63,028 nucleotides of DNA from Burkholderiales bacterium (GTDB taxonomy: Bacteria; Pseudomonadota; Gammaproteobacteria; Burkholderiales; Burkholderiaceae_E), in NCBI GenBank assembly GCA_947487165.1, contig CANKWX010000014.1, forward strand, positions 1 to 63,028. Reading direction: 5' to 3'. Positions 11,331 through 54,164 of this stretch are shown piece after piece; positions within the stretch are counted from its first letter, which is position 1; every line of letters starts with the position of its first letter. The position numbers were made by a program, and so were the translations under genes. The notes under the pieces are model-generated. The model saw only the letters and a program-made list of their open reading frames with translations. It had not been told where the DNA came from and made no database searches.

Positions 11331-11966
11331 CTAGCGAATCCCGATGATCTTGTGCATCTGCACCGACAGACGCCATTGGGGATTCGCCTGGCAGTAGGCC
11401 AGTGCGGCTTCGGTATTGCGCAGGCGATCCGGGCCGTCCATCGGTTGCAGCAGACGATGCTCGAATGACAGATGCTCGACCGCTTCCGGCATCAGACCCG
11501 GCTGCGGATACACCAGCTTCAGTTCATGGCCCTGCGTCTGCACGATGGCGGCGCCCGCCTTCGGGCTCATGCAGATCCAGTCGATTCCGGCGGGCGCCTT
11601 CAGCGTCCCGTTGGTTTCGACCGCAATCATGAAACCCGCCGCATGCAGGGCATCGACCAGGGCCTCATCGACCTGCAGCAGCGGCTCACCGCCGGTCAGC
11701 ACCACGAATCGATGCGCGATCGAGGCCACCGGCCACTGCACGGCAATCTGCGCGGCAAGCGATTCGGCATCAGGGTATTTGCCGCCGAGCGTGCCGTCGG
11801 TGCCCACGAAGTCGGTATCGCAGAACTGGCAGACCGCGCTCGGCCGGTCGGTCTCGCGCCCGGTCCAGAGGTTGCAGCCGGCAAAGCGGCAGAAGACCGC
11901 AGGTCGACCGGCGTGAAGCCCTTCGCCCTGCAGGGTGTAAAAAATTTCTTTCACCGAATAGGTCAC
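11331..11966 (-). CDS. queE: 7-carboxy-7-deazaguanine synthase QueE
   Basis: 211-residue radical-SAM enzyme converting 6-carboxytetrahydropterin to 7-carboxy-7-deazaguanine. It has the Burkholderia-type cluster motif: Cys31, Cys46 and Cys49 (CX14CX2C, ending CQFCDTDF) rather than CX3CX2C. The N-terminus FYTLQGEGLHAGRPAVF is typical of QueE. It starts three bases after the queD-like stop and is last in the minus-strand operon queC-queD-queE. Confidence 0.95.
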   Translation of the reverse strand: MTYSVKEIFYTLQGEGLHAGRPAVFCRFAGCNLWTGRETDRPSAVCQFCDTDFVGTDGTLGGKYPDAESLAAQIAVQWPVASIAHRFVVLTGGEPLLQVDEALVDALHAAGFMIAVETNGTLKAPAGIDWICMSPKAGAAIVQTQGHELKLVYPQPGLMPEAVEHLSFEHRLLQPMDGPDRLRNTEAALAYCQANPQWRLSVQMHKIIGIR

Positions 11967-11969
11967 AAC

Positions 11970-13079
11970 TCACACCGGCAATGCCGGCCCCTCAAGGTCT
12001 TGAGCAATGATCGAGCCGCAGCCTTCGGTCTCGAAGAGATCAACCCGCACCAGTTCGGGCAGAACAGCACGGGTGGTGCGATAGATCCAGTCGGCGATGC
12101 TCGCGGTATCGGTATCGGCAAGACCTTCCAGTTCATGCAGCGGCCGATGGTCGATTGCCCTGAACACCGGATCGAAAAGCGTCTTGACGTCACCGAAGTC
12201 GATCGTCCATCCCATCAAAGTATCGACAGGTGCACTCAGGTGCAGCCGCAGCGTAAAGGTGTGGCCATGAATGCCTCGCTCGGGCGAGCCTTGCGGTGCT
12301 CGTTTGATCTGCACGGCACTGTCGAGCGTGAAGTCCTTCCAGATGCGATAGCGTTGGCCGTCGAAATTGGCACCGCACGAACCGGTCTCGAACACCGTCA
12401 CCCAGGACAGCTCGGGCAGCACCGCACGCAGTCGGGTCCACAGCCATGACGAGATCAGCTCACTGGTCGGATTGCCAAGACCCTCGATGTCATTGAGGCA
12501 GCGATAGTCGAGCTCGCGCTGCAGCGGCGCCCAGATCGCATCAAGCTGGTCATAGTCGATACTGATGGCGCGCGCGCCGAGGTCCTGGTTGGCATGCACG
12601 ATGACTTCGAAGCCGTGACCATGCATGCGACCGCACTTGTGTCCCGGCGCCACGTTGGGCAACTGGTGCGCCGCCTGAAACCGGTAGCGGCGCCAGACAT
12701 GGGCATGGCCGGCAGGATCAAGATCGACCCCCTGGTTCGAGGTGCTTTGCACCGCGATGCGGCCGATCTGCGGCATAGCCAGCCGGGCCCTGATCCAGCG
12801 CGCAATGTTCTCGTCGGTCGGCTGATCGATCACGGTATTCAGATGCACGTAATTGAGCGGCTCGAGCGCTTCGCTCATCCGTTGCCGCAAGGCCGGCACC
12901 TCGCCGCCCGGATAAGGCGCCCAACCTGCGGCCAGCTGAGCAAACGCCGAAGCCTTGAAACTGTGGCCATGCAGAGCGCGGCAGCGGTGACCGTCGGGCA
13001 GCAGGTCGACCTGGCGTGCCGACTCGAAGCCACCGGTCGCCACCGTCATCAGGAGCGGCGGCGCAGGGGTCGCGATCAT
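11970..13079 (-). CDS. queD: Triple-domain 6-carboxytetrahydropterin synthase (QueD-like fusion)
   Basis: 369 residues, about three times a normal QueD. Three PTPS-like domains can be aligned: D1 (~1-122), D2 (~127-240), D3 (~244-360). D2 has the full zinc/Cys set: His138, Cys149, His153, His155 (CGRMHGH), and Glu231, but Tyr192 replaces the catalytic His (LDY). D3 keeps Asp310-His311 and Glu350 but lacks the first zinc His (Ser254) and the Cys (Glu267). D1 keeps Cys33 and HGH but has Arg22 for His, Asn76-Tyr77 for Asp-His, and Gln111 for Glu. Its position between queC and queE makes the QueD role likely. The ATG overlaps the queC stop; the longer open frame runs back into queC. Confidence 0.88.
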
Positions 13080-13783
13080 GTCGGGTTGGCCTGCGCTCGA
13101 AACGCGGCAAAGCCGTGGGCGCGCAGCTCGCAGGCCGGGCAGTGGCCGCAACCGTAGCCCCAGGCGTGGCGCACCGAACGGTCACCGAGATAGCAGGTGT
13201 GGGTCTGCTCGACGATCAGATCCACCAGCGCCTTGCCGCCCAGCGACTCGGCCAGGCGCCAGGTCGCGGCCTTGTCGATCCACATCAGCGGCGTCTCGAT
13301 CACCATCGGACTGGCCAGCCCCAGACTCAGGGCCACCTGGAGCGCCTTGAGCGTGTTGTCGCGGCAATCGGGATAGCCCGAGAAGTCGGTCTCGCACATG
13401 CCACCCACCAGAACCTCCAGCCCGCGCCGGTAGGCGAGCGTGGCGGCAAAGGTCAGAAAGAGCAGGTTGCGGCCTGGCACAAAGGTATTGGGCAGGCCGT
13501 TCTTTTCGAATTCGATCGCCTTGTCCTGGGTGAGCGCGGTATCGCTGATCTGCCCGAGCAAAGACAGATCGAGTAAATGATCATCGCCGAGCTTGCCGCG
13601 CCACCGCCCAAACTGCGCGCGAAACTCATCGAGCACCTTCAGTCGGCAATCAAGTTCGACCGCATGGCGCTGACCATAAGCGAACGCGACGGTCTCGACA
13701 TGCTGATAGCGCTCAAGCGCCCAGGCCAGGCAGGTGGTCGAGTCCTGGCCGCCGGAAAACAGAACAAGCGCACGTGAGTTCAC
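13076..13783 (-). CDS. queC: 7-cyano-7-deazaguanine synthase QueC
   Basis: 235-residue ATP-dependent enzyme making preQ0 from 7-carboxy-7-deazaguanine. The PP-loop [16 protein letters not shown] is near the N-terminus, and a C-terminal four-Cys zinc site is formed by THTCYLG and [12 protein letters not shown]. It is the first gene of the minus-strand queuosine cluster and overlaps the next gene by ATGA. No queF is visible here. Confidence 0.96.
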
Positions 13784-13879: not shown

Positions 13880-14497
13880 TCAGGGTTTCGGACGCAAGAG
13901 CGCCAGCGCCGATTCGCACATCCGAAGAAGGTCAGGCTTCACACCGCCGGCATTGGCCGCCGCGATCACACTTTCGAGTACCAGACTTGCCACTTCGACC
14001 CGGCCCCGGGATTGCACCAGCGCCACCCGAAGATGCTCGATGACCTTGTCCTTGGCATCGATTTCACGCACCAGCGGGTCCCAGTGGCTGACCCGGTAAT
14101 GCTCCATCAGGCCCTGGACGATCGCCTGGCTCGATGCCAGGGTGGCAAAATTGAAGTCCTTCTCGCTGAAATCGCGCAGACCTTCGATGGTCTTGAAGCT
14201 CTCGCTGGTGACGCGTTCGAAGCCCATGCTCCAGTCGGCGTATTGGCGCGCCTCGATCGCACGGCGACCGAGCAGTTGCACCGAGGTGTGGCGCGGATCC
14301 TTTTCGATCACCGCCACCAGATCATCAACCACCCGGTCGTCACCTTCGACGACCTGAAGGAAGGTGCCATTGGCAAAAAGCAGCATGCCGGTGATGTCTC
14401 TGGCCATGTTGTTGCGGCGACACTGCATGAGCAGTGAGAGCAAGTCCTCTGAGGACATTGGCGCTGCCGCCTGGCTGATATACGAAATCTGGATCAT
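13880..14497 (-). CDS. BLUF-domain blue-light sensor protein
   Basis: 205 residues. The N-terminal ~95 form a BLUF domain: Tyr6 (ISYIS), Asn30 (RRNNMARDITG), Gln48 (FLQVVEG), then RH at 69-70 and Trp89/Met91 (DWSMGF). These are the flavin-binding and photocycle residues. The C-terminal ~110 residues are mostly helical with no recognised output domain, so signalling probably acts by protein-protein contact. The start is fixed by an AGGAGGTG Shine-Dalgarno six bases upstream; the longer frame is rejected. A TACAAT -10 candidate is at 14531-14536. Divergent from the SOUL gene. Confidence 0.92.
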   Translation of the reverse strand: MIQISYISQAAAPMSSEDLLSLLMQCRRNNMARDITGMLLFANGTFLQVVEGDDRVVDDLVAVIEKDPRHTSVQLLGRRAIEARQYADWSMGFERVTSESFKTIEGLRDFSEKDFNFATLASSQAIVQGLMEHYRVSHWDPLVREIDAKDKVIEHLRVALVQSRGRVEVASLVLESVIAAANAGGVKPDLLRMCESALALLRPKP

Positions 14498-14708
14498 CGA
14501 GGCACCTCCTGCCGATACGCTGCTTTGACTATTGTAGTGGGTGATTGCTGCACCTGCGTTCAAACGGCGGCGTGACCGATAAAAGAGCCGGACGATCTCA
14601 GCAAAGGCCAGGCCGGCGGGGCGTACAGACCGCGCCGTCATGAAAACCCTCCGCCGCGAGGGGCCTGCCGTCCTTGCGTAAGCTGCCATCTCTGCAAGGA
14701 AACCACTC

Positions 14709-15368
14709 ATGCAAGCTTGTCAGCGCAGACTACTCACCTTTCTATATGCCTTCCTTCCCGCACTGCTGCTCTCAGCCCTGCCAGTCATGAGCCACGCCGT
14801 TGAAGAGCCGGGATACCAGGTCATCCGGAAAATCGACCCGATCGAGCTGCGCCGCTATGCCCCGTATGTGGTGGCCGAGGTGGTGCTGAACACCTCCCCT
14901 GAGAACGCAGGCAACCAGGCTTTCCCGATCCTGGCGGGCTATATCTTCGGCAAGAACAAGGGGGAGCGGAAACTGGCCATGACCGCGCCGGTCATCCAAA
15001 CGAACGCGCCGGTCATCCAGACTGCCGCCCCGGTTCGCCTCGAGATGACCGCCCCGGTGACGCAATCGGCGGTGGCAGGCGGTACGCTGGTGCAGTTCGT
15101 GCTGCCGAAAGACATCACGCTTGCGACGGCCCCCGAGCCAATTGATGAACGCGTGCGCCTGCGCGAAGTGCCCGCCACCACCTGGGCGGTCATTCGTTAT
15201 TCGGGAAGCTGGTCGCAGGCCAATTACGAGGAGCATCTGACGCAGCTCAGAGCCCTTCTGGGCGCCGCCGGCATTGCGACGCAGGGAGAGCCAGTGCTGG
15301 CTCGCTACGACCCTCCCTTCATGCCGTCATTTTTGCGGCGCAACGAGATCTGGCTGGAAGTCCGGTAA
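14709..15368 (+). CDS. SOUL family heme-binding protein, exported
   Basis: 219 residues: a signal peptide (to about residue 30, MSHAVEE), then a SOUL/HBP domain with YQVIRKIDPIELRRY, KLAMTAPVI and FVLPKD. SOUL proteins bind heme or other tetrapyrroles with low specificity. An internal seven-residue unit (APVIQT + one residue) is duplicated at about residues 93-106. Divergently arranged with the BLUF gene, so the two may share regulation; its function in the periplasm is not established. Confidence 0.88.
   Translation: MQACQRRLLTFLYAFLPALLLSALPVMSHAVEEPGYQVIRKIDPIELRRYAPYVVAEVVLNTSPENAGNQAFPILAGYIFGKNKGERKLAMTAPVIQTNAPVIQTAAPVRLEMTAPVTQSAVAGGTLVQFVLPKDITLATAPEPIDERVRLREVPATTWAVIRYSGSWSQANYEEHLTQLRALLGAAGIATQGEPVLARYDPPFMPSFLRRNEIWLEVR
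14985..15026 (+). repeat. 21-bp in-frame duplication inside the SOUL gene
   Basis: Two adjacent near-identical 21-base units (each starting GCGCCGGTCATCCA) encode APVIQTN and APVIQTA. The reading frame is preserved. It lengthens the loop after the conserved MTAPV motif. Confidence 0.75.
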
Positions 15369-53444: not shown

Positions 53445-54164
53445 TCAACCCAGTTTGATCAGTTGCAGAAACTCCCGGCGCAGCTCGGGGTTCTTGAGAA
53501 AATCGCCGCGCATGATGCTGTTGGTCATGTGTGGCTCGGCGTCCTTGACACCGCGCCACTGCATGCAGAAGTGATCGGCCTCGAGCACCAGCGCGAGCCC
53601 TGCGGGCTTGAGCCGGGCTTCGAGCAGATCGGCCAGCTGCATGACCGCCTCTTCCTGGATCTGCGGGCGGCTCATGATCCAGTCGGCAATGCGGGCGTAC
53701 TTTGACAGGCCGATCAGCTGGGAACCTTCGGAGGGCATCACGCCGACCCACAGGCGCCCGAGAATCGGCACCATATGGTGCGAGCAGGCGCTGCGCACCG
53801 TCATCGGCCCGATGATCATCAGTTCACTGAGGAGCTCGGCATTGGGAAACTCGGTGATCCGGGGCATCTGGTGATAGCGACCCTTGAAGACCTCCCCGAG
53901 GTACATGCGAGCCACTCGATTCGCGGTGCCACGACTGTTGTGATCGCCGTCGGTATCGATGATAAGGCTGCTGAGCACGGCCTCGATTCGTTCGGTCACC
54001 TCGGCCTCGAGCGCGACCCGCTCGGCATCGCCATGGATGAAGTCGGCGATATTGTCATTGGCGTGAAAACGCTTTCCGGCCTGCAGCAAACGCTCCCTGA
54101 TGCGCTGGGAGACCGGTTTTTCGGGCATGAGACCGTCGGGCGCTGCCGATACAATGGGATTCAA
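53445..54164 (-). CDS. folE: GTP cyclohydrolase I
   Basis: 239 residues. Zinc Cys and His in RSACSHHMVPILGR and the second Cys in FCMQWRG, plus GLSKYARIADW and the substrate-binding QLADLLEARL, are typical of FolE. The product, dihydroneopterin triphosphate, feeds folate and, through QueD, queuosine synthesis. TTG start with AAGGAG upstream; an ATG 12 codons in is an alternative. Confidence 0.93.
   Translation of the reverse strand: MNPIVSAAPDGLMPEKPVSQRIRERLLQAGKRFHANDNIADFIHGDAERVALEAEVTERIEAVLSSLIIDTDGDHNSRGTANRVARMYLGEVFKGRYHQMPRITEFPNAELLSELMIIGPMTVRSACSHHMVPILGRLWVGVMPSEGSQLIGLSKYARIADWIMSRPQIQEEAVMQLADLLEARLKPAGLALVLEADHFCMQWRGVKDAEPHMTNSIMRGDFLKNPELRREFLQLIKLG

Follow-up and report, generated by a model that had tools for sequence, protein, structure and literature searches.

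A three-domain QueD-like protein of Burkholderiales with a putative composite active site between its second and third domains

Introduction

An "intersubunit catalytic triad" is reportedly named in the title of a 1995 study by Burgisser. Passages of PMC7546909 place the active sites of PTPS enzymes between "every three adjacent monomers" (PMC7546909), in agreement with the interface position given in the initial annotation of the DNA described here. In canonical QueD (PTPS-I), such as 4ntk of E. coli and 2oba of P. aeruginosa, each chain carries a single domain. In contrast, a gene in a 63,028-nucleotide stretch of a Burkholderiales bacterium (GCA_947487165.1, contig CANKWX010000014.1, positions 1 to 63,028; hereafter the window) encodes three non-equivalent domains that would share one composite site. 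This gene lies on the minus strand at 11970..13079 (369 amino acids plus stop, with an ATG start codon at 13079), as defined by open reading frame call, Pfam match and AlphaFold2 model. Division of a site within one chain has a precedent in bimodular QueF of the V. cholerae type, in which tandem T-folds divide the catalytic elements between domains and form an interdomain site, according to passages of PMC5372742. The herpesvirus monomeric dUTPase is described in passages of PMC8961515 as a single-chain form of a homotrimer enzyme that arose by gene duplication and has a single active site.

The residue pattern makes it likely that the window protein is a covalent pseudo-trimeric QueD in which each chain has a single interdomain site, located where domains 2 and 3 (D2 and D3) join. 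Three T-fold domains would stand in for the subunits that usually make up the ring, and one chain would therefore constitute a covalent pseudo-trimer; two chains would probably stack into a pseudo-hexamer. Catalysis would take place in only one of three interdomain pockets. D2 would bind zinc through His138, His153 and His155 and supply Cys149 and Glu231, while D3 would reach across the junction with Asp310-His311 plus Trp291, Asp294 and Lys299. Together they would complete the Cys/Asp/His relay, which in ordinary PTPS enzymes is built by two subunits, and domain 1 (D1) would close the ring without a catalytic role. The gene product would then serve the cell as 6-carboxytetrahydropterin synthase (QueD) in the making of queuosine. 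Among these features we infer the contact of D2 and D3 residues within one chain, the ring, the pseudo-hexamer and the QueD activity.

A Residue Set Divided Between Two Domains

Two alignments were scored: A1, from 26 genomes of the order, and A2, whose 80 rows are the window protein and sequences from 79 of the 80 named contigs (L079, which contains X, was excluded). Their 106 rows collapse to 103 distinct rows, window protein included. One half of the putative site lies in D2, where His138 and Cys149-x3-His153-Gly-His155 (12615..12668, minus strand, as are all features of this gene) are the zinc ligands and catalytic Cys by homology, and where Glu231 (12387..12389) is presumably, again by homology, the substrate-anchoring Glu; all are present in 103/103 rows. 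The other half is Asp310-His311 of D3 (12147..12152), likewise present in 103/103 rows. The split between D2 and D3 is not due to chance, because the five D2 residues and the D3 pair are both complete in every one of these rows at identities down to 34%. The Asp-His pair of the relay occurs once in the window protein, in D3, the equivalent positions being Asp191-Tyr192 in D2 and Asn76-Tyr77 in D1. D3 in turn has Val256 in place of the first zinc His and Glu267 in place of the Cys, with HGH and Glu350 retained, and neither this His nor this Cys is found in D3 of any row (0/103). The 17 class-level loci, examined separately, all fit the D2/D3 pattern (17/17); some may come from species that are also represented among the named contigs.

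A second pair of motifs divides in the same way. In PDB alignments, single-domain QueD carries GWxxDFxxxK before the Asp-His pair and LNDIxGLxNPTSE after it. Trp291, Asp294 and Lys299 of the first motif (12183..12209) are kept in D3 in 103/103 rows, whereas at the corresponding D2 positions, located by counting from Asp175 without gaps, Trp is found in 1/103 and Lys in 2/103. Pro204-Thr-Ser-Glu207 of the second motif (12459..12470) is kept in D2 in 103/103 rows and is gone at the equivalent positions of D3. D2 and D3 therefore appear to preserve opposite faces of the ancestral subunit, one each, which fits a junction where the zinc face of D2 meets the Asp-His face of D3. The initial annotation had assigned the zinc His set, Cys and Glu to D2, the Asp-His pair to D3 alone and a composite site to the two together; the residue assignments hold, the composite site is supported, and the Trp-Asp-Lys and PTSE motifs, which that annotation did not mention, divide along the same line.

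Could D2 work alone, with other residues in the role of Asp-His and with D1 and D3 as scaffold? The Asp-His pair is indeed kept in D2 in 24/103 rows, but it is not intact in the other 79, and a scaffold would have no need of the invariant Asp-His, Trp291, Asp294 and Lys299 of D3, so that an autonomous D2 is extremely improbable.

Domain Architecture and Predicted Fold

Residue pattern, AlphaFold2 model and domain score together delimit D1 at residues 9-120 (12720..13055), a degenerate T-fold; D2 at residues 125-239 (12363..12707), with the zinc/Cys/Glu half of the predicted site; and D3 at residues 244-359 (12003..12350), with the Asp-His half. The three PTPS-like modules noticed at first inspection are borne out by Pfam, as PTPS (PF01242) matches three stretches of the protein (E 6.3e-51 and 171.9 bits for the whole protein) and each isolated domain (D1 29.1, D2 83.8 and D3 68.5 bits) exceeds the cut-off of 22.4. 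The whole protein also passes the NCBI equivalog model for QueD, TIGR03367 (139.1 vs a cut-off of 89.25), because the scores of the three domains sum. No match to the QueF domain PF14489 was found in the protein at E up to 1, and PTPS is the sole family above its cut-off.

A single-chain AlphaFold2 model, built from an alignment of 80 sequences, contains three T-folds with a predicted local distance difference test score (pLDDT) of 94.2 and a predicted template modelling score (pTM) of 0.91. This model bears on where D2 and D3 would meet. The residue pattern by itself is compatible with a meeting in cis or in trans. PTPS sites are inter-subunit (in passages of PMC7546909), which speaks for a pairing of D2 with D3 from a second chain, in an assembly that is open or domain-swapped; the protein would then still be an obligate oligomer. 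However, the pTM indicates that the domains of a single chain have a defined placement relative to one another, and two-domain stretches of the model are similar to tandem T-folds whose domains pack in the same chain. A site formed between chains is thus unlikely, and a site within the chain is preferred.

Relation to Queuosine Biosynthesis

The three-domain gene is flanked by queC (13076..13783, minus strand), which passes the NCBI equivalog cut-off of TIGR00364, and by queE of the TIGR04508 type (11331..11966, minus strand), which likewise passes its equivalog cut-off. The order queC-queD-queE forms a tight operon, with a 4-base overlap between the end of queC and the start of queD and 3 bases between the queD stop and the queE start. 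Across related loci, queC and/or queE are same-strand neighbours in 107/123 (both in 59, queE only in 44, queC only in 4), a count that left out loci L031-L034, L115 and L116. Of 26 genomes with the three-domain form, all but the source genome and G015 lack a PTPS gene of any other kind above the Pfam cut-off (24/26), where seven PTPS-like rows below that cut-off are not counted as genes; these 24 include one genome with two three-domain copies (G102) and one that is 78% complete (G126).

These data also address whether the protein no longer carries out the QueD reaction, and instead forms a different pterin product or only binds one. Each isolated domain falls below the TIGR03367 cut-off (D1 28.0, D2 67.2 and D3 53.7 bits), and other PTPS subfamilies yield other products, according to passages of PMC5041015. 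Against such a change stand the QueD-type CxxxHGH motif of D2, as defined in those same passages, the invariant catalytic set, the queC and queE neighbours and the 24 genomes just mentioned, and we regard it as very unlikely compared with a role as the cell's QueD.

A second QueD carrying the activity in the source genome (completeness 98.26%, contamination 3.56%) was considered and rejected. The search for a separate single-domain gene, which the initial annotation had named as a possible source of the activity, returned L002 only, of 134 amino acids, which scores 41.5 vs the QueD cut-off of 89.25 and by eye has no Cys, no third zinc His and no Asp-His pair, with HGA in place of HGH. This divergent PTPS gene (L002:1489-1893) adjoins genes for a RibD_C reductase, a dehydrogenase and a glycosyltransferase, neighbours that suggest another pterin pathway.

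The source genome also encodes FolE, Tgt and QueF (QueF elsewhere, at C3). A gene for GTP cyclohydrolase I (FolE, step 1 of the pathway) lies within the window at 53445-54164, about 40 kb from the que operon, and two more FolE matches are found elsewhere in the genome. Upstream of queC, the region 13880-15368 contains a BLUF blue-light sensor gene on the same strand and, divergent from it, a gene for a SOUL heme-binding protein.

Domain 1

Conservation is lowest in D1 (mean majority fraction 0.615, vs 0.740 for D2 and 0.673 for D3). As first annotated, it has lost the first His, the Asp-His pair and the Glu: Arg22 stands at the first zinc His, Asn76-Tyr77 at the pair and Ser112 at the Glu, and the first His is absent from D1 in all rows (0/103). 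Since it is without the first His and Glu, D1 has no PTPS site of its own and looks non-catalytic as judged from its residues. The window protein retains Cys33 and His37-Gly38-His39 (12963..12971) in D1; the Cys is present there in only 9/103 rows, while the HGH is invariant (103/103). The description of the remaining sites as decayed therefore stands for the lost residues of D1 and not for this motif. Phe18, like the HGH, is found in 103/103 rows, and Glu19, Ala21, Asp89, Ser112 and Gly117 in 100-102/103.

In a domain that looks non-catalytic, what would such residues do? They may be structural, or may form a second pocket with another task. A tentative possibility, less likely than not, is that three once-equal pockets diverged, so that the D2/D3 pocket catalyses and the D1 pocket, with its invariant HGH and nearly invariant Asp89, Ser112 and Gly117, is kept for another job, e.g., to bind a ligand or a metal without catalysis and thereby adjust the one active site or dock QueE.

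Distribution and Origin

The survey proposed at the outset found the three-domain form in 26/200 genomes of the order, source genome included, and in 19/369 genomes of the class, two of which (the source genome and G015) are also in the order sample. It is further present in 80 named contigs, the best 80 of 544 relatives, which are mostly from Betaproteobacteria and Gammaproteobacteria; one bin each carries the label Nitrospinaceae, Magnetococcales or Planctomycetota, perhaps through erroneous binning. Six phage records and 189 plasmid records match, none covering 80% of the query in one place.

A 66-row tree was built from 19/26 rows of A1 and nine single-domain proteins, with few columns, many open forks and a root that is merely drawn. 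Each domain falls into a single clade (bootstrap 100 for D1, 96 for D2 and 100 for D3), and the branch to the D1 group is long. A recent duplication or an assembly artefact is rejected, because each domain forms one clade and the form recurs across the order, the class and the named contigs. We infer a single ancient origin of the three-domain arrangement, either before the lineages parted or followed by spread through transfer.

The single-domain QueD-type gene of G015 (L135:1036-1458) has the motifs CRHLHGH, WDH and FETP, and is a candidate for comparison of the two forms in one cell. The second three-domain copy of G102 (L137:648-2912) has, by eye, an insertion near the end of D1. G070 has a lone D1-like open frame of 119 amino acids (L136:1072-1428) that looks like a remnant; no further PTPS match was found in this genome at E up to 1, and no queC or queE in the 4.5 kb examined.

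Evidence Against a Single D2/D3 Site

Several observations weigh against a pseudo-trimeric QueD with one D2/D3 site. A third contributor to the site may exist, because passages of PMC7546909 place the PTPS site between three monomers. The decay of the Asp-His pair is incomplete, since besides the 24 rows with an intact pair in D2 there are 20/103 with one in D1, and the invariant HGH of D1 is not predicted for a purely structural domain. The isolated domains fail the QueD equivalog model that the whole protein passes. G015 holds an intact-looking single-domain QueD-type gene beside the three-domain form, and 16/123 loci have neither queC nor queE nearby; some loci are short. Finally, A2 covers 79 relatives, drawn from the 80 best among 544, and farther relatives lie outside this sample.

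Comparison with Known Systems

No description of a three-domain QueD was found in the open-licence literature, as far as titles, the starts of abstracts and passages of PMC5041015, PMC7546909, PMC2229834, PMC5372742, PMC11130926 and PMC13329287 extend. Given the QueF and dUTPase precedents, the principle is therefore known and this instance appears undescribed, within the same portion of the literature.

Bimodular QueF, according to the passages of PMC5372742, resembles the three-domain QueD in its tandem T-folds, its place in the queuosine pathway, its split catalytic elements, its interdomain site and the existence of single-domain homologues. It differs in having two domains, another reaction and no central tunnel, whereas the three-domain QueD may close a ring. 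Urate oxidase also consists of tandem T-folds but has two domains and a different chemistry. It is cofactor-free, and one PDB title among the matches to the model says as much. The herpesvirus dUTPase, as described in PMC8961515, is alike in that one chain replaces a homotrimer and has a single active site, but its chain is about twofold longer and its motifs are reordered. Its fold is unrelated to that of the T-fold QueD.

In the three-domain protein, nature would have dissected an enzyme that is otherwise an obligate oligomer. The residues owed by each subunit face appear to have been separated in evolution, and both halves of the PTPS/QueD site can therefore be read from sequence alone. It also offers a testable case of why a cell trades three sites per trimer for one, in parallel with bimodular QueF, which acts at a later step of the queuosine pathway.
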